DNA of 40,557 nucleotides from a virus, in IMG/VR virus record IMGVR_UViG_3300012931_000039, positions 1 through 40,557 of that record; one strand, written 5' to 3'. The translations under genes were made by a program, and so were the position numbers. Within the stretch, counting starts at the first letter, position 1, and each line of letters starts with the position of its first letter. Of this stretch, positions 18,891 through 40,557 are shown piece by piece. Below the pieces are notes generated by a model. It searched no databases and had not been told where the DNA came from. It was given only the letters and a program-made list of their open reading frames with translations.

Positions 18891-19431
18891 AGCGCGCCCC
18901 GGCTTGCCAGAGGTACATGTAGCGCCGCAGGTCGAGCAGGTCATCCAGCACGCCGGCGGGGTCCCAAAGCTGGGCTTCCAACGCCCGCAGCAGCCCGCCG
19001 TGAGTGTCCATCTGGACCCGCATGCGGTCCCACTTGCGGATTCCCACCATGTAGGCCCCCACGCCACCCCGCCGGTACCAGCTGTCGCCGTAAGTGGTCT
19101 GGCGCGCCCGCAACACGGCCACGTCCCCTCCCAGTGCCAACCCGCATTCCGCACGGTAGTCCCAACACTGAAACGCCGTCAGCCACTGGCGCGCTTCCCG
19201 CACGTACGCCCGCACGGTCGGCTCCATGTCGAGGGCGTGAAAGATGTCCCAGCCGAACTCCCGCGCCGAGATGTCCACCCGGGTCATCAGTTCCACCAGC
19301 CATCGTTCCTCGAGTGAGGGGTGTCGGCGTTCCACCCATCGCCTGACCACCCGCTCGTCGGCACGGCACAGGATCTCTACACCGCGCAGGATGCGCTCGC
19401 CCGTGGGCAACAACTCGCGTTTATGTGGCAT
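18877..19431 (-). CDS. Nucleotide modification associated domain 1-like protein (Nmad1 / DUF1599)
   Basis: A 184-aa protein starting at ATG 19431 and overlapping the end of the hydroxymethylase gene by 11 nt. The C-terminal half has 'TTYGDSWYRRGGVGAYMVGI' (112-131), KWDR (133-136), then 'LDDLLDLRRYMYLW' (162-175). This follows the DUF1599 order of Y-G-x-x-W, a K-x-x-R helix and a D-D-L-x-D-x-x-x-Y helix. That family was named for frequent linkage with DNA base modification genes, which fits this neighbourhood. Its own activity is unknown; the N-terminal ~90 residues look like an added helical domain. Confidence 0.6.
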   Translation of the reverse strand: MPHKRELLPTGERILRGVEILCRADERVVRRWVERRHPSLEERWLVELMTRVDISAREFGWDIFHALDMEPTVRAYVREARQWLTAFQCWDYRAECGLALGGDVAVLRARQTTYGDSWYRRGGVGAYMVGIRKWDRMRVQMDTHGGLLRALEAQLWDPAGVLDDLLDLRRYMYLWQAGARCGLR

Positions 19432-20527
19432 CTTCGCCCACCGGCTCGCGGGGGGTTCCCGGCTGGTACCAGGCCTGGGGCACTTCGATACCGCGGTAGT
19501 GCCGTACCAACCATTCCCCGCAGGCCAAGCGCCAGTCAGTGGCCCGACACTGACGCACGTGTTCCAGCGCCAGCGCGACGTTCTCTCGCCGCACGTCCCA
19601 GGCCCGGCGCAACGGCTGGGCCACCTCGTAGAAGTAGGGGTAAGAGTAGCCTTCCCGATCCCACGCCGGGCCTAAGAACCGCATCAGGTCCAACTCCCAA
19701 TCGGCCGTCTTGAGCCCTAGGGAGATACCGCCGTAGAACAGCGGGTAGGGATGCACCCAGCCGAGCTCGTAGGGACAGGCGGTGCGGTTGACAAACTGCT
19801 CGGCGCCCCAACGCTCGCCCCACAGCGCGGCGTACACGTGGGCGTTGGCGGTGGCGAAGTGCAGGGCGCCCACGCCCAGGGGCACGCCGGCCCGCTCAGA
19901 GATCGCCTCGGCCAACCACTCTTGGAGCATGCTGAAGTGGACGACGTTCGCCCCAAACAGTCCCCAGATCAGGTCGTGCCCGCGCGCCGTGATTAAGAGG
20001 TCGAGCCGGTCGTCCACCAACCGGCCCCACTGGTGCGAGCGGACGGTGGGCACCACGGCCAGGTTGCACGGCACGTCGCGCCCCGGGCCAGGGCCGTCGC
20101 ACCGCGGGTCCCACATGCCCAACACCACGCGCCGCTCCGTGGGGTCGGCCGCCAACCGTTCGGCCGCGGCCAACAGCTGGTCCCGGCCGAAGTGATGACG
20201 CCAGCGGTGCCCGTAGGCCCCCGCGAAGGTCACGCCGTCGTCCGAGTAGTCGGTCATGCGGCGGTTGAACTGTGCCAGCCAGGCCACGTCGTTCGAGCCG
20301 GCGAGCATCCACAACCCCTCCATCAGGTGGAAGAAGGGGTTGGCGTCCCGCACGGCGTCAAACAGCACCCGCTCCCGCGGGCGCTCCACCTCGGTGAACA
20401 GCGGGCCGGGCAGCCGCAAGACGCCACCATTCCGCGAGCCGTCTGGCTGGGCGTAGGCGTGCAACTCGATCCGCGCCACGGCGAACACCTCGTTCACGTT
20501 GCGTCCGCGTACCGTGTGCATGGGCAT
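19421..20527 (-). CDS. Thymidylate-synthase-fold dUMP hydroxymethylase (probable)
   Basis: A 368-aa protein of the TS / pyrimidine hydroxymethylase superfamily. Key positions are visible: 'FFHLMEGLWMLAG' with E70; 'RRVVLGMWDP' (132-141); 'RDVPCNLAVV' with catalytic Cys154; and 'DLLITARGHDLIWGLFGANV' with R182 and N194. The Asn in 'GAN' is the residue that reads dUMP in thymidylate synthases, where dCMP hydroxymethylases carry Asp. The substrate is therefore probably dUMP. Linkage with 5-hmdU kinase and transferase genes argues that the product is hydroxymethyl-dUMP, but plain dTMP synthesis cannot be excluded. ATG 20527 follows an AGGAGA site. Confidence 0.75.
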   Translation of the reverse strand: MPMHTVRGRNVNEVFAVARIELHAYAQPDGSRNGGVLRLPGPLFTEVERPRERVLFDAVRDANPFFHLMEGLWMLAGSNDVAWLAQFNRRMTDYSDDGVTFAGAYGHRWRHHFGRDQLLAAAERLAADPTERRVVLGMWDPRCDGPGPGRDVPCNLAVVPTVRSHQWGRLVDDRLDLLITARGHDLIWGLFGANVVHFSMLQEWLAEAISERAGVPLGVGALHFATANAHVYAALWGERWGAEQFVNRTACPYELGWVHPYPLFYGGISLGLKTADWELDLMRFLGPAWDREGYSYPYFYEVAQPLRRAWDVRRENVALALEHVRQCRATDWRLACGEWLVRHYRGIEVPQAWYQPGTPREPVGEDAT

Positions 20528-28437: not shown

Positions 28438-28574
28438 GGTTCTTCGGCTGGCGACGCGTGCGCGTCATTGACGAGCTGCGGCTGACCGAGGTGGCCTACC
28501 ACCCGGCCAGCGGCCAGTGCGCCGTGGCTGGGTTGGTAGAACGCTGGCACTGGGAATGGCGGAGGGTCCGGTGA
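28434..28574 (+). CDS. Small basic protein (46 aa)
   Basis: GTG 28434 overlaps the recombinase stop (GTGA), and its stop overlaps the GTG start of the nuclease. The product is basic and Trp-rich (RFFGWRRVRVIDELRL ... ERWHWEWRRVR). It may be a small partner of the recombination proteins or only a coupling peptide; the sequence alone does not decide. Confidence 0.45.
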   Translation: MRFFGWRRVRVIDELRLTEVAYHPASGQCAVAGLVERWHWEWRRVR

Positions 28575-29737
28575 AGGTCGCCCACCTGGCGGACTTGCAC
28601 CTCGGGTTCCGACGCTACCAGCGCATCACCCCCGAGGGCGTGAACCAGCGGGAGGCCGACGTGGCCCGGGCATTCCGCACCGTGGTAGACGGGCTGATCG
28701 CCACAGGGCCCGACCTCGTGCTGGTGGCCGGGGACCACTTCCACAGCATCCGGCCCGGCAACCACGCCATCATCGACGCCTACTCCCAGTGGGCTCGGTT
28801 CCGCGCCGCCCGGCCGGAGGTGCCGGTAGTGATCGTCAGCGGCAACCACGACACCCCGCGCACCAGCGAAGTGGGGTTCATCCTGCGGCTCTTTCACCAG
28901 CTGCCAGGGTTCTACGTGGCCGCCGGGGATCCGAAAGACTTCCGGCTTCAGGTCGCGGGGACGGCCGTACACATCCGGGCGGTGCCCGAGAGCAACCGCC
29001 CCGTACCGATCAACCAGCCCGACAAGGACGGCCTACGGATCCTGCTGCTGCACGGCGACACGCCCTCCACCGTCAAGTGGAAGGGAGACCCCCAGGGGGT
29101 CTTCTGCCACAACGTGGTGCCGGTCGAGGAACTGGCCCGCTGGGACTACGCGGCGCTCGGGCACTACCACGTGACCCAGCAGGTGGGCGAGCACGCCTGG
29201 TACGCCGGCGCCATCGAGTACACCAGCAGCGATCCCTGGGCCGAGCTGCGTGAGGAGGAGGGGATCGGCAAGGCATGGCTGCTGGTCACCTTTGACGGCC
29301 GAGTCCCCACGGTCGAGCGCCAGCCGGTGCCGACCCGCGCGCTGCGAGATCTGCCCGTCGTGGACGCCGCGGCCATGACGGGAGCCGAACTGATGGATGC
29401 CCTACGCGCCAACCTACCCGCGCAGTATGACGGCATGGTCCTGCGGCAGGTCGTCCAGAACGTCCCGCCCTCACGGCGGCAAGAGCTCGACCACAGCGCC
29501 ATCCGTCGCTGGAAAGCCACGGCGCTCGAGTACCAGCTGGACCTGCGCCGGCCGGCGCGCGACGCTGCCGCGCTCACCGCTCACAACGAGCTGCGGGGCA
29601 AGAGCCTGGCGGAGATCGTGGCGGACCACCTCGCAGCCCGGCCCCTGCCCCCGGACATCGACCGCGAGGCCTTGATGCGGCTGGCGGACAAGACCCTGGC
29701 CGACGCCGACGCCGCGCACGAGGCGGCTGCCATATGA
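28571..29737 (+). CDS. SbcD/Mre11-like metallophosphoesterase nuclease
   Basis: A 388-aa protein with the five metallophosphoesterase motifs: D8 and H10 in 'VAHLADLHLG', G54-D55, N92-H93-D94 in 'GNHDT', H161-G-D in 'LLLHGDTP', and G197-H-Y-H200. A C-terminal helical part (about 270-388) follows, in place of SbcD's own cap. GTG 28571 has GGAGGG four bases ahead and overlaps the previous stop, so it is preferred over ATG 28556. No SbcC/Rad50 ATPase is encoded here, so it would work alone, with host SbcC, or with the annealing protein upstream. Confidence 0.8.
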   Translation: MKVAHLADLHLGFRRYQRITPEGVNQREADVARAFRTVVDGLIATGPDLVLVAGDHFHSIRPGNHAIIDAYSQWARFRAARPEVPVVIVSGNHDTPRTSEVGFILRLFHQLPGFYVAAGDPKDFRLQVAGTAVHIRAVPESNRPVPINQPDKDGLRILLLHGDTPSTVKWKGDPQGVFCHNVVPVEELARWDYAALGHYHVTQQVGEHAWYAGAIEYTSSDPWAELREEEGIGKAWLLVTFDGRVPTVERQPVPTRALRDLPVVDAAAMTGAELMDALRANLPAQYDGMVLRQVVQNVPPSRRQELDHSAIRRWKATALEYQLDLRRPARDAAALTAHNELRGKSLAEIVADHLAARPLPPDIDREALMRLADKTLADADAAHEAAAI

Positions 29738-31461: not shown

Positions 31462-31538
31462 CCGCCTGCTGGTGGGGCCTGCTGGCCGCGTACTCTTGGG
31501 GGCTCCCACGGGTGATCGACCGGGCGGAGCGCCAGTGA
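31458..31538 (+). CDS. Small hydrophobic peptide (26 aa)
   Basis: GTG 31458 (GTGA overlap) to TGA 31538, which overlaps the start of the methyltransferase. The product begins 'MTACWWGLLAAYSWGLP', half of a membrane span. With the previous gene it forms a pair of tiny coupled ORFs. It is real only if translation is confirmed. Confidence 0.35.
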   Translation: MTACWWGLLAAYSWGLPRVIDRAERQ

Positions 31539-32896
31539 GCCATGTCTACTACAACGACAATGAGCCGTTTGTCGCCCAGTGGTTGCGGAACCTGATCGCG
31601 GCGGGCCACCTGCCCGCTGGAGACGTGGATGAGCGGAGCATCACCGAAGTCCAACCCGACGACGTGCGCGGCTACACCCAATGCCACTTCTTCGCTGGCA
31701 TTGGCGGCTGGCCTCTCGCGCTCCAGCTCGCCGCTTGGGGCGACCGACCTATTTGGACCGGCTCCTGCCCCTGCCAACCCTTCTCCGCGGCGGGCAAAGG
31801 GCAAGCCGGCGCTGACGCACGGCATCTCTGGCCAGCGTGGTTTCGGCTCATCCGCGAGTGCCGCCCTGAGCGAGTCTTTGGCGAGCAGGTTGCAAACGCA
31901 ACTGGGCACGGCTGGCTCGACCTTGTGGCGACAGACCTGGAAGCGGAGGCGTACACCGTTGGGTCGGTTGAACTGGGCGCACACAGCGTCGGGGCTCCGC
32001 ACCAACGGCAACGGCTCTGGTTCGTGGCCGAGTCCCGATGCCCAGAACATGCGCCCTGGAGACTCACCCCGGACGCTGACGCCGGAACGCATGGCGAGCG
32101 GCAGGACCAAGCCAGCGGGAGCGAGCCTGCATCATGCGGCCCAACTGGCGACGTGGCCGACGCCGAACGCGATCCCCGAAACGCGGGGCGGATTGCAAAC
32201 GAGCCCCGAGGGCGCGATGAAGCGGCGAGCGGCGGGCCATGCGGTGAACCTGGACGATGCGGCCCAATTGACGGCCTGGACGACGCCGCAGGCCCACGAC
32301 GCGACGGCGCGGGGCAAGGGCCAGAAGCCGAAGCATGGGACGAAGCACGGGTGCGCCGACCTGAACGCGGACGCGGTTTTGGCTGGCTGGCCGAGCCCGA
32401 TGGCAGGAACCCCTGCGACGGAGCGGTACAACGAAGCGGGCAACACGGACAGCAGCCGCAAGACGGTGGACCTCGCCAGTTGGGCAACCCCGCGGCTGGA
32501 GGACGGGGAGAGCGCGGGGATGCGCCACGCCCGCCAGACGGCGGACACGCTCTCCGCGCAGGCGGGGCAGGATGTGGGGAGTTGGCCGAGCCCGAATACG
32601 CGGGACCATCACGCACAGGGGGCGACCCACAACCCGAAGGCGCAATCATCCTCGCTGGCGACCATCGCTCAAAAGAAAGCGCCTCCCCTTGGGATGCCTA
32701 TCTCTGGCTCCCCTGCCGCGACGGGAAAGCCCGCCCGATTCCTGCTGAACCCGCGCTTTTCCCTCTGGTTGATGGGCTACCCAACCGCGTGGGCCTCCTG
32801 CGGGGAGCGGGTAACGCGATCAACCCGCAGACGGCAGCGGCGTTTGTGAGGGCCTACATGGACTGTATCGACCGGGCGGACCGGGGGCCACGGTGA
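31535..32896 (+). CDS. DNA cytosine-C5 methyltransferase
   Basis: A 453-aa protein starting at GTG 31535 in a GTGA overlap. Motif I is FAGIGG (53-58), motif IV is 'GSCPCQPFSAAGKG' with catalytic Cys80, motif VI reads GEQVA in place of the usual ENV, and motif VIII is QRQRLWFV (157-164). The C-terminus has 'CRDGKARPIPAEPALF' and 'RVGLLRGAGNAINPQTAA' (motif X). Between about 170 and 390 lies an Ala/Gly/Arg/Asp-rich region with repeated 'ADAE/AEPE' elements in place of an ordinary target recognition domain. That stretch is also open in the +1 frame, which encodes its own conserved-looking motifs. Confidence 0.85.
   Translation: MSHVYYNDNEPFVAQWLRNLIAAGHLPAGDVDERSITEVQPDDVRGYTQCHFFAGIGGWPLALQLAAWGDRPIWTGSCPCQPFSAAGKGQAGADARHLWPAWFRLIRECRPERVFGEQVANATGHGWLDLVATDLEAEAYTVGSVELGAHSVGAPHQRQRLWFVAESRCPEHAPWRLTPDADAGTHGERQDQASGSEPASCGPTGDVADAERDPRNAGRIANEPRGRDEAASGGPCGEPGRCGPIDGLDDAAGPRRDGAGQGPEAEAWDEARVRRPERGRGFGWLAEPDGRNPCDGAVQRSGQHGQQPQDGGPRQLGNPAAGGRGERGDAPRPPDGGHALRAGGAGCGELAEPEYAGPSRTGGDPQPEGAIILAGDHRSKESASPWDAYLWLPCRDGKARPIPAEPALFPLVDGLPNRVGLLRGAGNAINPQTAAAFVRAYMDCIDRADRGPR
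31629..32849 (+). CDS. Overlapping +1-frame ORF nested in the cytosine methyltransferase gene
   Basis: A 406-codon frame lies wholly inside the methyltransferase gene, with ATG 31629 six bases after GGAG. It does not look like random shadow. It has repeated W-P/T/A/S-(T/S)-P units (SWPSPDAQ, TWPTPNAIP, AWTTPQAHD, GWPSPMAGTP, SWATPRL, SWPSPNTRD). The N-terminal part has 'DLFGPAPAPANPSPR' and 'GSTLWRQTWKRRRTPLGRL', and the C-terminus 'LNPRFSLWLMGYPTAW'. I have met the same motif set in phage proteins annotated as methyltransferase-related. The sequence alone suggests two proteins are selected from one stretch. Function unknown. Confidence 0.5.
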   Translation: MSGASPKSNPTTCAATPNATSSLALAAGLSRSSSPLGATDLFGPAPAPANPSPRRAKGKPALTHGISGQRGFGSSASAALSESLASRLQTQLGTAGSTLWRQTWKRRRTPLGRLNWAHTASGLRTNGNGSGSWPSPDAQNMRPGDSPRTLTPERMASGRTKPAGASLHHAAQLATWPTPNAIPETRGGLQTSPEGAMKRRAAGHAVNLDDAAQLTAWTTPQAHDATARGKGQKPKHGTKHGCADLNADAVLAGWPSPMAGTPATERYNEAGNTDSSRKTVDLASWATPRLEDGESAGMRHARQTADTLSAQAGQDVGSWPSPNTRDHHAQGATHNPKAQSSSLATIAQKKAPPLGMPISGSPAATGKPARFLLNPRFSLWLMGYPTAWASCGERVTRSTRRRQRRL

Positions 32897-34656: not shown

Positions 34657-35189
34657 ATATCCCCCTTGGCAGTCTTGAGCGCATCCCGCAGTGAGGACAT
34701 CGCCGTGTCCAGCCGCAGTTCCAGGCGGTTCATCCTGCTCTCCAGCGCCGCCACTTGGGGATCGTAGCGGCCATAGAGCTGATCGGTCAGCTTGGAGCTG
34801 AGTCCGTTCAGATCTTCGCGCAGCCGAGCCACGCTGGCCAGCACACCTCTGAGACTGGCCGTCGCTTCGCCGAACTCCCGGCTGTCGCTCTCGCCGTGAT
34901 CCACCACCATGCGTAAGAGAGCATCGACACGCTGAGTGATCTCGCTGCGCAGCGCCTCGCGAGCGGCGTTCGCAGCGATCTCTATCCGCTCCAGCCGGCG
35001 CTCTGTGCGTAGCTGGAGCAGCCAGGTGACGAGCCCGAGCACGCCAAACGCGCCCAACGTATATTCCAGGTTGTTCGGCCCGATGCCCGGCGGCAGTTGC
35101 GCCAGAAGCCGGCCGCCGGGGATCGCCACGAGAGCCAAGATCGGCAGGCCAGCCGCTCGCCGCCAGAAGCGCCGCCACGGCTGGCTCAT
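34653..35189 (-). CDS. Membrane-anchored coiled-coil protein
   Basis: A 178-aa protein starting at ATG 35189 in an ATGA overlap with the giant tail gene. Two hydrophobic segments (AAGLPILALVAIPGGRLLAQ, about 12-31, and 'YTLGAFGVLGLVTWLLQL', about 43-60) precede a long heptad-like region (62-175) such as 'RRLERIEIAANAAREALR' and 'LRLDTAMSSLRDALKTAK'. The position beside the lysis genes suggests a holin-associated or spanin-like role; no lipobox is visible. Confidence 0.6.
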   Translation of the reverse strand: MSQPWRRFWRRAAGLPILALVAIPGGRLLAQLPPGIGPNNLEYTLGAFGVLGLVTWLLQLRTERRLERIEIAANAAREALRSEITQRVDALLRMVVDHGESDSREFGEATASLRGVLASVARLREDLNGLSSKLTDQLYGRYDPQVAALESRMNRLELRLDTAMSSLRDALKTAKGDM

Positions 35190-38100
35190 GTGGCAATCAG
35201 CCCATGCGCGCGGGCGCGGGCGAGCCAGTCGTTGAGTCGCGCCATGGTGCTGGCGGGATCGGTGGCGTCCGCCACGGCGGCGCCCTGCGCGCCGACCACT
35301 TGCGTCGTGTTGACCCGGTACACCTTCCCGCTGCTCACATCCACGTCGTCCGCGAACAGGTGCTTGGCGCTCGCCCCCACGGCGGTATAGGTCACCAGCC
35401 CGGCGTCGGAGATCGTCACGTCGAGCCGGTTGGAGGCGTCGTACCCGAAGGAGGGGTTCTTCCAGGGGAGCGCCGTGGTCCCCAGCGTGAGGAGGGCGGC
35501 ACTCTCTGGCACGATGGCGGTGGCCCCCAGCCGCATCTTGCCCGAGGACCCCGCAACACCGAAGGCCATCTCATCGTTCGCCGCAACGTATTGGATAAAC
35601 CCCTTCAGAGTCGGCGTGGTGTCATAGAAACCGACGAACGTATTCCCGCCCGCCGTCGCGCGGACCAGGGAGAGGGCCGCCCCATCGTTCGTGGCGGTGA
35701 GCGCCCCCAGGCTCAATGACCCCCAATTGTCGCTGGTGTTGAGTAGGTTGATGTTGCTGACGCTCGTGCCCTGCAAGCGCAATTCCCCCGCGACGTTGCC
35801 GAGCACCACCGCAAAGCCCGACGTGGCCTTGACCGTCGTCGCCGTGAGCGCGCCCATCGCAACGGCGTGACCCTGGAAGTCGGCGGCGCCTGTCGCGGCA
35901 ATCGTGAGACGGATGGTGGCGTTCGTTCCGAATTGCAGAGGTTGATTTGATAGCACTCCGAGGAAACCGGCGTATGCTGTTCCCCCGCTGAATAGGGCTC
36001 CGCCGGTGCTCCGATCCACGCCCCAGAACAGATCGCCCGAGTTGTTAACGAGTCGTCCGAAGGCGGCTTGCGTGCCAGTCACCGGCGACAGGTAAATCAG
36101 CCCGGTATTGGCATTGCTGCTACCCTGCACCAGGGCATTGACGCCTAGGCTGGTGCCCAAAATAGCCTGACTCGCAGCGATACTGGCGGCAAAGGTCGCA
36201 GTCTGGTCTGCATTCAGCGTCAGAGCTTCGACCAATCCCGCGCCGTTGGCGGTGCGGAAATGCAGTTGGGCGCCAGTCACATCCCCGGTATCGAGATAGA
36301 CGCTCCCCGCAATTCCGGCGCCACCCGCCCGCTCGTTGCCGATGAGTTGGAGGACCGCCCCGCGCGTGCTGCCGAACGCCCCACCACCAGAGAGCCGTAG
36401 CACGTTCGTGTCGGCACCATCACTCGTGGACGCAACAAGATCGAACGGATTGCTACCATAGACGAAAGAACCGCCCGACACCGTGAGCCCCGCCTGCGCG
36501 GTGAGGAGACCGGCGACGATCAAGGCGTCATCGGTCTTGAGGGTGTCGGCCGCACTGCGGTAGAGGTTGGTATCCACGGCGGCGACGCCGCCAGCGCCCC
36601 ACTCCATCTTGCCGCTGGCGTAGAGTTGGTACCGCTGCGTGGCGTCGCCGGTGACCCGAGTGCCCAGGACCACATCGGTGGCGAGGCCGCCCAGCAGGTT
36701 GTACTGGCCCTCCTGGAGGTCGCCGGGGACGACGTCGGCCGCGAGCACCGTGTCCCAGTCGGGGGCGCCGGCCGTGGCGCCGTCCCCCACCTGACGCCAG
36801 AACTTCCGGGTCGTGCTGACGTTGCCCGCCACCGCCGCCCAGGCGCCGGCCGTCCCGTAGAGCGTGTCCCCTTCGGCTGGGGGGCTGCCGGTCACTGTGG
36901 CGCCGCTAAACGATCCGCTCAAGGCGTCGTACTCTACGCCAGCCGGACTGCTGATCTCGGAGAGCATCAGGAGCGACCCACTGCCGCCCAGCACACCCAG
37001 GAAGTGGAGGTGCGCCTTCAGGTCCCAATTGGCGTCCAGTTGGGCGGCGAACGAGATGCTGTCAATCTGGTTGTGCTTCTGCCCCACGCTGTAGGTTTTG
37101 ACGCCCACCTGCGTCCAGTTGGTACTCGCCGGACCGTCGTTCTTCCAGAGGGTCAACTCCATCAGGGTGCCGGCCAAACTCTGGGAATTGACCATGTAAG
37201 AGACGGTAAAGGTCGTCTCGATCGGCGTAGCATCTTCCAGGTTCGAGAAGGCTTCCTCCCCCTCACTATCCAAGAGCACGACGCTCTCCGCGCCGTTCAA
37301 GGAGGCGGCCCAGCCGTCTTTGACGTGGGTCGTGGTGAGCCCGGCGAACCCCCCGCCGGCCACGAAGCTGATCCGCTGTTTCCCCAGGTCGATGGATTCG
37401 GCGCCAGCCCCAGCCGCCTCCTCGTAGGCCAAGACCGACACGTAGGCCGTTTCGCCGTCCGAGATGGCAAGCAGCGTGCCACTCACCGCGACGCCCGCCT
37501 CATCGGTATCCAGGGCCGTCTCGGCGCGCACCGCCGCCGCGTCGGGGAAGACGCTGCTGTCGTCGGGATCGGTATCGACCGCGGCGGCGATCTTTACCGA
37601 GCCGCCGCCCCGCGTCATGACCGTCGCCCGCACGGCGCCCGAGGGATCCTGAAACAGCTGGACCGTGCTCACGGTGGGGATGCTACACGCCTTGAGTAGG
37701 CCGGGCATGACGCTGACCACGGCCGTGTAGGCACTCGCCGTCGCCCCCGGCCGCACATGCCGCGCCCGCAGGTAGCGCAGCTTCCCATCCACCGGGGCCG
37801 ACGTCTCCCAGCGGGTGAGGCCGCTCACCGCCGTGGGTACCGTCTGCTGGAGCGTATAGGCCCCCGGGATGCCCGAGCCGACCGCGGTTTCCACCGCCAT
37901 CTCGACTTCGATGGCCGAGGGGACCACCGCCCCCTGGATACAGAGCCCGATCGTCGAGTGCCAGGAGAAGATGGTCTCCGGGCTACCGAGGCCACAGAAG
38001 GCCGACGCGCCGTAGGGCGCGGGGAGCGTGGGCACCGCTCCGGGCACGGTGAACGACATTTCGGTCGTTGTGCTCACGCCGTGGAACGGCGCGTCTTCGG

Positions 38101-40557
38101 CATGCCGCACGCCCAGGGTGTAGCTCACGGCGGGCGTGAGCGAGAGCCAGACTTCAGCCGACCCCGCCGGGAGCCGGGCCACCAGCACTGCCTCGTCCGC
38201 CGGGTCGCCCTGTGGCCGCTGGTAGACCTCGAGCGGCACGTCCGTCTCGCCCACCGTCCACGAGAACTTGGTCCGGCCGGCATCGTCCGGGTCGGCCGCG
38301 TGGCCCAAAGCGCTGGGCGCCACGAGGTCCGTCAGGTTGACGTCCTGCCAGGCACTCCAGGCCGTAGGCCGCTGGTCGTTCCGGAAGGCTTGCATCCGGA
38401 TCCAGATCCGCGCCCCCGCATCGACCAGCGGGGTCAGGAAGTCGGCGGGGAGATAGCCTTCGGAATACGTGGCCAGCAGCGCGCCGCCATCAGCGGGGGC
38501 CGAGCCCCCGGCATGCCATTGGACCCGGAGCCAGGCGCGCGCGGTGTCCAGGGCGGCCTTGTTGGTGACGGTCACGGCGACCTGCTTGTTGCCGCTCGCC
38601 GCGAGGGTGAAGGTCGGGCTGGTGTTGAACTGGCTATTGGGCCCCGAATCCAGCAGCCGCAGGACCAGCCCTTCAGGTTGGACGGTGCGTTGGACCACCT
38701 GGAGGATCCGCGCCCCACCCCGGACCCCGGCGTTGGGCAGGTGGGCCACGTCGAGGATCAACTCATCGCCCAGCCGCTCCACCACGGTGTCCAGCACTTC
38801 GACGTTGCCGAACACCCCGCCCCGGCCGAAGCGGTCGAAGATCTCCATTGCCAGGGAATGCTCTGTGCTCCAGACACCCCCCGCAAACGGGTATCCACCC
38901 CCCTGGAGCGCGGCGTGGGTAACGGAGATCGTGCCTGGCAGGTCGAACACCAACTCCCGCGGCCCCTCCGTGGCACTGTCTGGCGTCCCGTCCCCGTCCG
39001 AGTCGAGCGGCACCTCGCGCGTCCGGGTGAGGCTCTGCACATCATCCAGCGGCCGTTCGGTGCCGAACTCATCACTCCAGGCCCGGAACTCCTGTTGCGC
39101 AATCCGAATCGTGTTGTAAATGGTGCTCTCGTCCAGCTCGAAGATCACCGTGTCGGGGCTGCGCAGATCCGTCAGGTCGTAGGTGTTGCTGGGCGCCGTG
39201 AGGTTGCGCACCCGCACCACGACGATCTCGATCTCGCCGTCGTCGCCGCGGCGGAGCCCCACGCCGAACAACCCACACAGCAGTCGCAGACAGTCGCCCA
39301 AGACGGGCGGGTCGGTGATCCGGAGCGTGATCAGCAGGTTGGGGCCCAATGCGCTCTTGGTGGCCGCCGCCAGGGTGCTATCCCAGGGAATCCCGGCGTC
39401 ACTGAGGAGCGCCGTGATCAAGTCAACCGGGTGGCCCTCGTAGTGGTAGGGGTTGTCCTTGCCCACGACGTTGCGCCAGGCGTAGAGCCGGTACTGGGCG
39501 CCGACGAGGGGCGGGCTGGCATCCCAGGGCGTGCCGACCGTCGAGACGATCAGGGCGCTCTGCGCGTTGGCCAGCAGCGGCCCGTAGGGGGCGTACTCCT
39601 CGAACTGCACGACCGGGATGAAGTCATCCACCAGCGTGCCGTCCAGGTCAGCCACGCGGACCGTGAGGTCGCTGAAGACGGGTTGGTCGCCTGTTGGCTC
39701 GTAGACCCCTTCCCAACTGGTCTGGGCGAAGCGGTTGGCCCGGCCCAGGGCGAGCGCGCCCATGCCCCGCGGCGGCCCTAATTCATAGCGGCCGTCTTCC
39801 ACCGGCAGGAACCCTTGCTCGAAGGCCAGGGTCACGGTATGGGCCCCGGCGTCGGCGTCCACCACCTCGAAGACCGGGGCTCCCCGATCGGGCACCGGGC
39901 CCCAGCCACCGTGAATCGGCCCCCCAATCAGGCAGCTGATCGCCGGCAGGTAGTCGGTGTAGCGGGCGAAGGCCCGGCGTGTGAACTCCACCCTCTGTGA
40001 ATCGGCGATCTGGAACTGCCAGCGCAGCGCATCCAGCAGCCGGTAACTGTTCACGTAGCCGGCGATCAGCACCGTGCCCCAGCTCGAGCCCCCGTCGTCG
40101 CTCATCTCCACGTAGGCCCGCCGGTGCACCAGCGTCTGCCGGCCGTTCGCATCCACGATCGCCCGGGTGATGAGGCGGTAGGTGGTGTAGACGAGGGCTT
40201 CGACGAGGTCGATCCGGACGTCCTGGTTGGCGTTGCCCTGCGTCTCGAAGCGCCAGCGGCGGTGGCCGCTGTTCTCGAAACTCACGCCGAACGTCTTGGC
40301 GCCGATCAGCGTCCGGGTCCCTCCCCCGAAGTTCTCGCGGTAGTAGGTGACGGTGGCCCCGCTGAAGGCCAGCACGAACCGGCATTGGCCGCCGGCATTG
40401 GCCAACGCCAGCGTCCCCAGCACCGTGTCCTCGACCAAGACGCCGGCCGCGCCGCGGACGGCGCGCACTTGCACGGTGTTCGCATCGATCGGGCCGAGTT
40501 TGATCCCGATCCCGTCCTGGTAGACGCCACCAGTGGCGCTCGCGCGGGCGTAGAAGG
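35186..40557 (-). CDS. Giant tail / host-specificity protein, main part
   Basis: With its N-terminal part at 1-501 this makes a 1945-aa protein. Beyond the jelly-roll-like start (FYARASATGGVYQDGIGI) come tail-tip-like beta regions. A fibronectin-III-like middle (FSWTVGETDVPLEVYQRP) follows. The C-terminal third (FWRQVGDGATAGAPDWDTVL and later Gly/Ala/Thr-rich repeats) is in the style of tail fibres. A GTG at 40474 is not the real start. The gene likely combines the tip (J-like) and fibre functions in one chain and ends in an ATGA overlap. No chaperone peptidase motif was identified. Confidence 0.8.
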   Translation of the reverse strand, partial: FYARASATGGVYQDGIGIKLGPIDANTVQVRAVRGAAGVLVEDTVLGTLALANAGGQCRFVLAFSGATVTYYRENFGGGTRTLIGAKTFGVSFENSGHRRWRFETQGNANQDVRIDLVEALVYTTYRLITRAIVDANGRQTLVHRRAYVEMSDDGGSSWGTVLIAGYVNSYRLLDALRWQFQIADSQRVEFTRRAFARYTDYLPAISCLIGGPIHGGWGPVPDRGAPVFEVVDADAGAHTVTLAFEQGFLPVEDGRYELGPPRGMGALALGRANRFAQTSWEGVYEPTGDQPVFSDLTVRVADLDGTLVDDFIPVVQFEEYAPYGPLLANAQSALIVSTVGTPWDASPPLVGAQYRLYAWRNVVGKDNPYHYEGHPVDLITALLSDAGIPWDSTLAAATKSALGPNLLITLRITDPPVLGDCLRLLCGLFGVGLRRGDDGEIEIVVVRVRNLTAPSNTYDLTDLRSPDTVIFELDESTIYNTIRIAQQEFRAWSDEFGTERPLDDVQSLTRTREVPLDSDGDGTPDSATEGPRELVFDLPGTISVTHAALQGGGYPFAGGVWSTEHSLAMEIFDRFGRGGVFGNVEVLDTVVERLGDELILDVAHLPNAGVRGGARILQVVQRTVQPEGLVLRLLDSGPNSQFNTSPTFTLAASGNKQVAVTVTNKAALDTARAWLRVQWHAGGSAPADGGALLATYSEGYLPADFLTPLVDAGARIWIRMQAFRNDQRPTAWSAWQDVNLTDLVAPSALGHAADPDDAGRTKFSWTVGETDVPLEVYQRPQGDPADEAVLVARLPAGSAEVWLSLTPAVSYTLGVRHAEDAPFHGVSTTTEMSFTVPGAVPTLPAPYGASAFCGLGSPETIFSWHSTIGLCIQGAVVPSAIEVEMAVETAVGSGIPGAYTLQQTVPTAVSGLTRWETSAPVDGKLRYLRARHVRPGATASAYTAVVSVMPGLLKACSIPTVSTVQLFQDPSGAVRATVMTRGGGSVKIAAAVDTDPDDSSVFPDAAAVRAETALDTDEAGVAVSGTLLAISDGETAYVSVLAYEEAAGAGAESIDLGKQRISFVAGGGFAGLTTTHVKDGWAASLNGAESVVLLDSEGEEAFSNLEDATPIETTFTVSYMVNSQSLAGTLMELTLWKNDGPASTNWTQVGVKTYSVGQKHNQIDSISFAAQLDANWDLKAHLHFLGVLGGSGSLLMLSEISSPAGVEYDALSGSFSGATVTGSPPAEGDTLYGTAGAWAAVAGNVSTTRKFWRQVGDGATAGAPDWDTVLAADVVPGDLQEGQYNLLGGLATDVVLGTRVTGDATQRYQLYASGKMEWGAGGVAAVDTNLYRSAADTLKTDDALIVAGLLTAQAGLTVSGGSFVYGSNPFDLVASTSDGADTNVLRLSGGGAFGSTRGAVLQLIGNERAGGAGIAGSVYLDTGDVTGAQLHFRTANGAGLVEALTLNADQTATFAASIAASQAILGTSLGVNALVQGSSNANTGLIYLSPVTGTQAAFGRLVNNSGDLFWGVDRSTGGALFSGGTAYAGFLGVLSNQPLQFGTNATIRLTIAATGAADFQGHAVAMGALTATTVKATSGFAVVLGNVAGELRLQGTSVSNINLLNTSDNWGSLSLGALTATNDGAALSLVRATAGGNTFVGFYDTTPTLKGFIQYVAANDEMAFGVAGSSGKMRLGATAIVPESAALLTLGTTALPWKNPSFGYDASNRLDVTISDAGLVTYTAVGASAKHLFADDVDVSSGKVYRVNTTQVVGAQGAAVADATDPASTMARLNDWLARARAHGLIAT
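40538..40557. repeat. Contig-end direct repeat, right copy
   Basis: This copy is identical to bases 16-35. Position 40557 is the second base of a minus-strand codon, as is position 35, so collapsing the overlap keeps the reading frame of the giant tail protein. Confidence 0.85.

Follow-up and report, generated by a model that had tools for sequence, protein, structure and literature searches.

In the C5 methyltransferase M.EcoHK31I, the gene for the large subunit also encodes the small one, in an alternative frame, and the isoschizomer M.EaeI is likewise a close known system for the locus described here. M.EcoHK31I is a two-polypeptide enzyme whose large subunit carries motifs I-VIII and X and whose small subunit carries motif IX (PMC3404938, citing Lee, Kam and Shaw 1995), and its predicted target-recognition domain (TRD) has been placed in the large subunit (PMC3404938). 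M.AquI also consists naturally of two polypeptides; this C5 methyltransferase is divided after motif VIII, within the variable region (PMC3404938). Among phage genes, the ShiLan gp65 methylase has an out-of-frame HNH endonuclease within the gene (PMC11855218).

Here, we analyzed a 40,557-base stretch of DNA (the window), which is one metagenomic virus record containing terminase, portal, and other phage genes. A cytosine methyltransferase gene in this window, alpha, holds a second ORF, beta, wholly within it in the +1 frame. We consider, with a probability of about 0.88, that the locus specifies a C5-cytosine DNA methyltransferase in two natural parts, subunits that share their bases and differ in frame (0 and +1); most likely, one frame encodes the catalytic half and the other the half that recognizes DNA.

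Features of the locus and translation signals

The features of the locus are as follows.

31535-32896, plus strand: alpha, C5-cytosine DNA methyltransferase catalytic subunit; frame 0, GTG start, 453 aa; phrog_363, PF00145
31619-31631, plus strand: beta ribosome-binding site and ATG start; GGAG at 31619-31622, 6 nt upstream of the ATG
31629-32849, plus strand: beta, proposed TRD and motif IX subunit; +1 frame, inside alpha, ATG start, TGA stop, 406 aa; phrog_1008
31691-31711, plus strand: alpha motif I (FAGIGGW), AdoMet binding
31760-31798, plus strand: alpha motif IV, catalytic PCQ (GSCPCQPFSAAGK); P79, C80, F83, S84, and G87 invariant in 94 homologs
31877-31891, plus strand: alpha motif VI, FGEQV instead of ENV; G116, E117, and Q118 invariant
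31914-32027, plus strand: conserved beta N-terminal domain (GSTLWRQTWK..TPLGR..), over alpha motifs VI-VIII; G96 invariant and S97, W104, T109, and P110 nearly invariant in 104 homologs
31991-32026, plus strand: alpha motif VIII (GAPHQRQRLWFV); R158 and R160 invariant
32025-32594, plus strand: six beta W-x-T/S-P units, proposed recognition modules; starts at 32025, 32154, 32277, 32388, 32481, and 32583 (beta residues 133, 176, 217, 254, 285, and 319)
32039-32689, plus strand: alpha passenger linker, residues 169-385; open, unconserved as protein, low pLDDT
32742-32792, plus strand: beta motif IX (LLNPRFSLWLMGYPTAW), beta residues 372-388, over alpha PAEPALFPLVDGLPNRV; placed by hhalign to single-frame methyltransferases
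32804-32845, plus strand: alpha motif X (GAGNAINPQTAAAF); G426, N427, and A428 nearly invariant

The GTG start of alpha follows a Shine-Dalgarno (SD) sequence, GGAG, and overlaps the stop of the upstream gene as GTGA; the gene ends in TGA. An earlier sequence-only reading had described the +1 ORF as 406 codons long with its own ribosome-binding site, and the ATG at 31629 with its upstream GGAG agrees with that description. In the alignment, the column of the window's beta ATG reads ATG in 68 of 132 homologs, 48 of which also have an SD sequence, and a start with an SD close to where the +1 frame opens was present in 73/132 homologs against 34.9 +- 4.7 expected. The exact beta start is uncertain because residues 1 to ~68 show stop depletion without a clear signal of synonymous constraint. 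A TTG or ATG with an SD near alpha residue 92 is common among relatives, and a second beta start there is possible in some of them. A beta starting only at that point was rejected, since +1 stops are also depleted upstream and the window has no ATG, GTG, or TTG there.

Other genes of the window were also noted. A thymidylate synthase family gene (19421-20527, minus strand; phrog_5131, E 1.2e-83) hints that this phage may modify nucleotides. A gene at 28517-29737 (plus strand) matches an SbcD-like nuclease or metallophosphoesterase family (phrog_100), and the sole match of a 1762-residue ORF at 35186-40474 (minus strand) is a short, C-terminal one to a head fiber protein family.

Alpha as the likely catalytic subunit

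Alpha matches phrog_363 (E 2.3e-73) and PF00145 (E 2.3e-12; 47.4 bits against a cut-off of 22). This profile match, together with motifs I, IV (PCQ), VIII, and X and a motif VI that reads EQV, places it in the PF00145 C5-cytosine methyltransferase family, and the C5 methyltransferase motifs that the sequence-only reading had seen in frame 0 could each be located. Against M.HhaI chains, the alpha profile gave a best E of 1.8e-17 with a match spanning only motifs I and IV-VIII. The predicted fold matches M.HhaI/M.HaeIII (probability 1.00), and on this model the catalytic fold is probably that of M.HhaI. In the AlphaFold model, the catalytic part is above pLDDT 90 in most of its blocks and confidence extends over most of residues 1-168; the middle (residues ~180-382) is predicted to be unstructured, with a pLDDT of about 36-50, and a C-terminal helix at 431-450 is predicted at high confidence. 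Motif IX was not found in alpha.

Selection on both reading frames

The window by itself says little about whether the +1 frame is more than chance. An open +1 run this long arises in 9% of synonymous shuffles of frame 0 (p = 0.09), which is not significant because a GC-rich, leucine-poor frame 0 gives few +1 stops. On this evidence, the +1 ORF could be a by-product of such base and codon composition, with its conservation merely mirroring frame 0, and relatives were compared for this reason. We picked 80 viral loci by frame 0 alone and 80 by +1, which yielded 142 distinct genes, the window included. In these homologs, which are kin, so that stop counts are not independent events, yet diverse (124 beta representatives left at 75% identity), 6 +1 stops were observed against 67 expected over alpha residues 40-92 and 34 against 463 over residues 93-430; all 34 lie near the C-terminus, and none of the stops fall between residues 57 and 360. 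A +1 frame broken in relatives whose frame 0 is intact would speak against an old overlap; among the 73 distinct homologs selected by frame 0, we found 2 +1 stops in alpha 40-92 and no homolog with a stop in 93-400. Stop depletion is absent from the +2 frame (13.8 vs 13.0). The null model is calibrated, since 111 flanking control genes from the same loci, treated identically, gave 10.60 observed and 10.72 expected +1 stops, with p < 0.01 in 1/111. In the reciprocal test, in which beta codons were shuffled synonymously, frame-0 stops in the middle numbered 0 against 346 expected. The overlap is also retained in low-GC phages, with +1 runs of 232, 236, and 203 codons in Aragogtheria (45%), Bloom (47%), and R23.9 (48%), respectively, and 16-25 +2 stops.

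Synonymous sites tell in which segments the second frame matters. Third-base mismatch at 4-fold codons shared among homologs was about 0.59-0.71 over alpha residues 11-100, close to the saturation value of 0.735, fell to 0.22-0.49 over residues 101-170 and to 0.16-0.18 over residues 401-420, at beta motif IX, and rose again to 0.55-0.69 beyond residue 430. Where beta is conserved, synonymous divergence drops sharply, from ~0.65 to 0.16-0.49 inside the overlap; this is the excess constraint over single-frame expectation that the sequence-only reading had proposed looking for. In close pairs, differences at frame-0 codon positions 1/2/3 were 0.114/0.081/0.398 before the overlap and 0.095/0.050/0.086 in residues 386-428. 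Ungapped blocks of the middle region gave 0.370/0.171/0.139, which is a +1 coding signature, and protein identity there was 78.9% in +1 (0.789), 55.6% in frame 0 (0.556), and 57.8% in the unused +2 frame (0.578). From the codon pattern and the 4-fold data, it follows that selection acts mainly on alpha over motifs I-VIII and mainly on beta in the middle, that both proteins are held fixed around motif IX, and that at motif X only alpha is. The frame-0 middle stays open though it is unconserved as a protein. The +1 codon periodicity found across the middle does not fit a conserved RNA element as the source of the synonymous constraint.

Dual coding is thus real, and both proteins are under selection. 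A by-product would not give stop depletion in 142 homologs against calibrated controls, an overlap persisting at 45-48% GC, synonymous constraint confined to the overlap, or a middle with +1 periodicity in which frame 0 is no better conserved than an unused frame. We regard that explanation as extremely improbable; a chance +1 ORF is ruled out on the homologs, not on the window alone. The suggestion that the overlap is old and conserved is supported by these stop and synonymous-site data across relatives. This overlap allows a segment-by-segment reading of which frame natural selection follows.

Breadth and linkage of the two frames

In a set of 322 viral and phage loci, in which some contigs are duplicates, beta lies in the +1 relation and overlaps alpha by >300 bases in 320. 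The remaining two are L195, with an overlap of 212, and the E. coli K-12 dcm control, which has no beta. In L195, the alpha match lies in a short segment of 110 codons and the open beta run spans 207; this may reflect a broken alpha or a contig error. In all 80 bacterial-genome loci, beta likewise lies in +1 relative to alpha. An alpha-blind DNA pattern in viral contigs, counted together with eight phage records, gave 49 +1 overlaps and 4 same-frame cases. Searches for a standalone beta with two beta alignments and the alpha-blind pattern in viral contigs, and with one alignment scan in bacterial genomes, found none; every beta-like ORF found overlapped or was fused with a methyltransferase. 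Hundreds of phages and prophages retain this arrangement.

The sequence-only reading had linked the two motif sets to separately annotated phage proteins, and they do correspond to two separate public phage families, phrog_363 for alpha and phrog_1008 for beta, both labelled 'DNA methyltransferase'; some GenBank phages annotate both frames as overlapping CDS. Gene callers mostly report one frame, with the result that beta is missed or filed as an unrelated methyltransferase. The two-frame gene is ~400 codons long here and 200-500 in most relatives, and the phages and prophages that keep it come from Proteobacteria, Firmicutes, and Actinobacteria.

Beta as the proposed recognition subunit

Beta matches phrog_1008 (E 5.6e-21). 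No model for it was found in Pfam or NCBIfam, its profile matched no solved structure in the PDB, and its own predicted model is poor (pLDDT 62), with fold comparison returning nothing but small, common arrangements, none above Z 3. The W-x-T/S-P repeats and C-terminal motif that had been noticed in the +1 frame are present as six units and as LLNPRFSLWLMGYPTAW; likewise, the frame-0 repeats said to share their bases with the +1 WPTP/WPSP repeats are found as VADA/AEP tracts coinciding with them. The C-terminal end of beta carries LNPRFSLWLMGYP, its motif IX. By hhalign, beta LNPRFSLWLMGYPTAW aligns with LSPRFVEFLMGLPAGW of single-frame methyltransferases (probability 92.5, E 4.9e-7), and the alignment to M.HhaI motifs IX-X is colinear without being statistically significant.

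Single-frame relatives provide the second line of evidence. In Mycobacterium phage ShiLan gp70, a single chain carries motifs I-VIII, LPTP modules, PRLAPAFSEWMMGWP, and motif X; its residues 1-385 match phrog_363 (E 4e-79) and residues 196-388 match phrog_1008 (E 2e-61). Proteins of this type share the catalytic domain, LPTP modules, motif IX, and motif X with the window pair and differ in having all of them in one frame, while the +1 frame still contains the beta N-terminal region and two LPTP units. Because single-frame relatives hold both families in one chain, and because the motif IX profiles align, we propose that beta provides two parts of a C5 methyltransferase, the TRD, composed of W-x-T/S-P modules, and motif IX. 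The sequence-only reading had not seen that alpha and beta resemble complementary portions of a single enzyme. Among pairs whose alpha N-termini are >=80% identical, the beta middle is <50% identical in 126/333, a variation that fits what would be expected of exchangeable specificity modules; these variable modules presumably set the specificity. If beta holds the recognition domain, methylation-site prediction in many phages needs the other frame.

Beta might instead be a real protein that is not a methyltransferase subunit, such as an independent anti-restriction or regulatory protein produced by overprinting. The lack of a solved beta relative and the poor beta model leave some room for this, but it accounts badly for beta-family sequence forming the C-terminal half of single-frame methyltransferases, for a motif IX that is carried by beta and was not found in alpha, and for the absence of standalone beta from the viral and bacterial searches. 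We consider such a role improbable.

A model for a split enzyme

The canonical motif order (I-VIII, TRD, IX, X) is intact along the DNA, and the carrying frame goes 0 -> +1 -> 0. In the model that we favor, a methyltransferase split between two frames, alpha would be translated from its GTGA-coupled start and beta from its own ribosome-binding site and ATG. Motifs I, IV, VI, and VIII of alpha would fold at the N-terminus, followed by an unstructured linker and then the C-terminal motif X helix, and beta would supply its conserved N-terminal domain, a TRD of variable W-x-T/S-P modules, and motif IX. The two chains would then associate into one methyltransferase, which may methylate phage DNA at a site chosen by beta. 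Such methylation would protect the phage DNA against host restriction, and an anti-restriction role is likely by analogy with methyltransferases of other phages.

The same motif order, with only the frame changing, would also be expected if programmed frameshifting made one full-length methyltransferase, moving to +1 after motif VIII and back to 0 before motif X, in which case beta would not be independent; that some relatives are truly single-frame is in keeping with this. Yet two opposite shifts would be required, the +1 frame is open from about residue 40 and conserved as a protein upstream of the needed shift (alpha 101-168), starts with SD sequences are enriched for beta, and alpha retains conserved frame-0 residues in 386-428, on the very bases of beta motif IX. 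Frameshifting is accordingly given little credence here, and two independently translated subunits are preferred.

Shifting frame arrangements among relatives

The frame that carries the recognition modules, motif IX, and motif X varies among relatives (L332, L344, L368, L326, L352, L391, L325, L369, L393, and L451-L454), as if indels shift modules between the subunits. In L332, L344, L368, and the Gordonia phage GordDuk1, motif X is in beta, giving an AquI-like split in which the two overlapping subunits use different frames. JKSyngboy, Magnar, Fushigi, L352, and L391 have the TRD in +1 and motifs IX and X in frame 0. In ShiLan, prophiGD91-2, L369, and L393, the LPTP modules, IX, and X are all in frame 0, and the +1 frame retains the beta N-terminal region. 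At L343 (4036-5112, plus strand), one frame fuses alpha up to motif VI to beta (ETWPRAGM..WPTP..LNPTWVEWLMGYP) without motif VIII, and this is either a deletion product or an unusual fusion.

With at least four arrangements of one motif order (the window type, AquI-like, TRD in +1 with IX-X in frame 0, and single frame), these loci may represent a frame-exchanging split enzyme, in which, as both frames remain open and both proteins are produced, indels move modules (recognition units, IX, and X) between subunits without destroying the enzyme; we put the odds of this at about even. If it holds, the long dual coding would be a standing feature that allows fast swaps of recognition modules. The single-frame relatives offer a direct route to testing the origin of the split, overlapping enzyme.

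Comparison with known systems

The closest correspondence is with M.EcoHK31I. As in that enzyme, and likened by motif layout rather than by sequence, alpha has motifs I-VIII and X without IX, motif IX is in a second polypeptide, and beta lies in another frame within the first gene. The differences are that M.EcoHK31I is part of a restriction-modification system, whereas the window gene is a phage gene with no nuclease gene recognised alongside, most neighbours having no family match, and that its TRD is assigned to the large subunit, opposite to our assignment to beta, which has several W-x-T/S-P modules. An M.AquI-type split places motif X with IX in the small subunit; the window locus does not have this layout, as X (32804-32845) is in alpha and IX (32742-32792) in beta. 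The ShiLan gp65 gene resembles the locus as an overlapping ORF inside a phage methylase gene, but it is another gene with a mobile insertion of an unrelated nuclease, not two halves of one enzyme.

In E. coli phage K1ind2, ORF28 ('Mte8-like') lies in +1 inside ORF29 ('C-specific methylase') and falls in phrog_1008. The K1ind2 alpha has 309 aa, which we take to be the length of M.EcoHK31I alpha as well, and the 'Mte8-like' annotation is a further lead. The K1ind2 and phrog_363/phrog_1008 annotations differ from the present account in treating the frames as separate genes, and we found no dual-coding analysis of them. The sequence-only reading knew of no description of a dual-coding system; this stands for the phage family, for which the open literature searched contained no paper describing it as dual-coding, and fails for the principle, since the two-polypeptide design was already known in 1995 from M.EcoHK31I. 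To judge from the open literature, the phage-wide breadth with quantified dual constraint, the placement of the TRD in beta, and modules trading frames appear undescribed, in a locus whose architecture, judged from its sequence, appears to be that of M.EcoHK31I.
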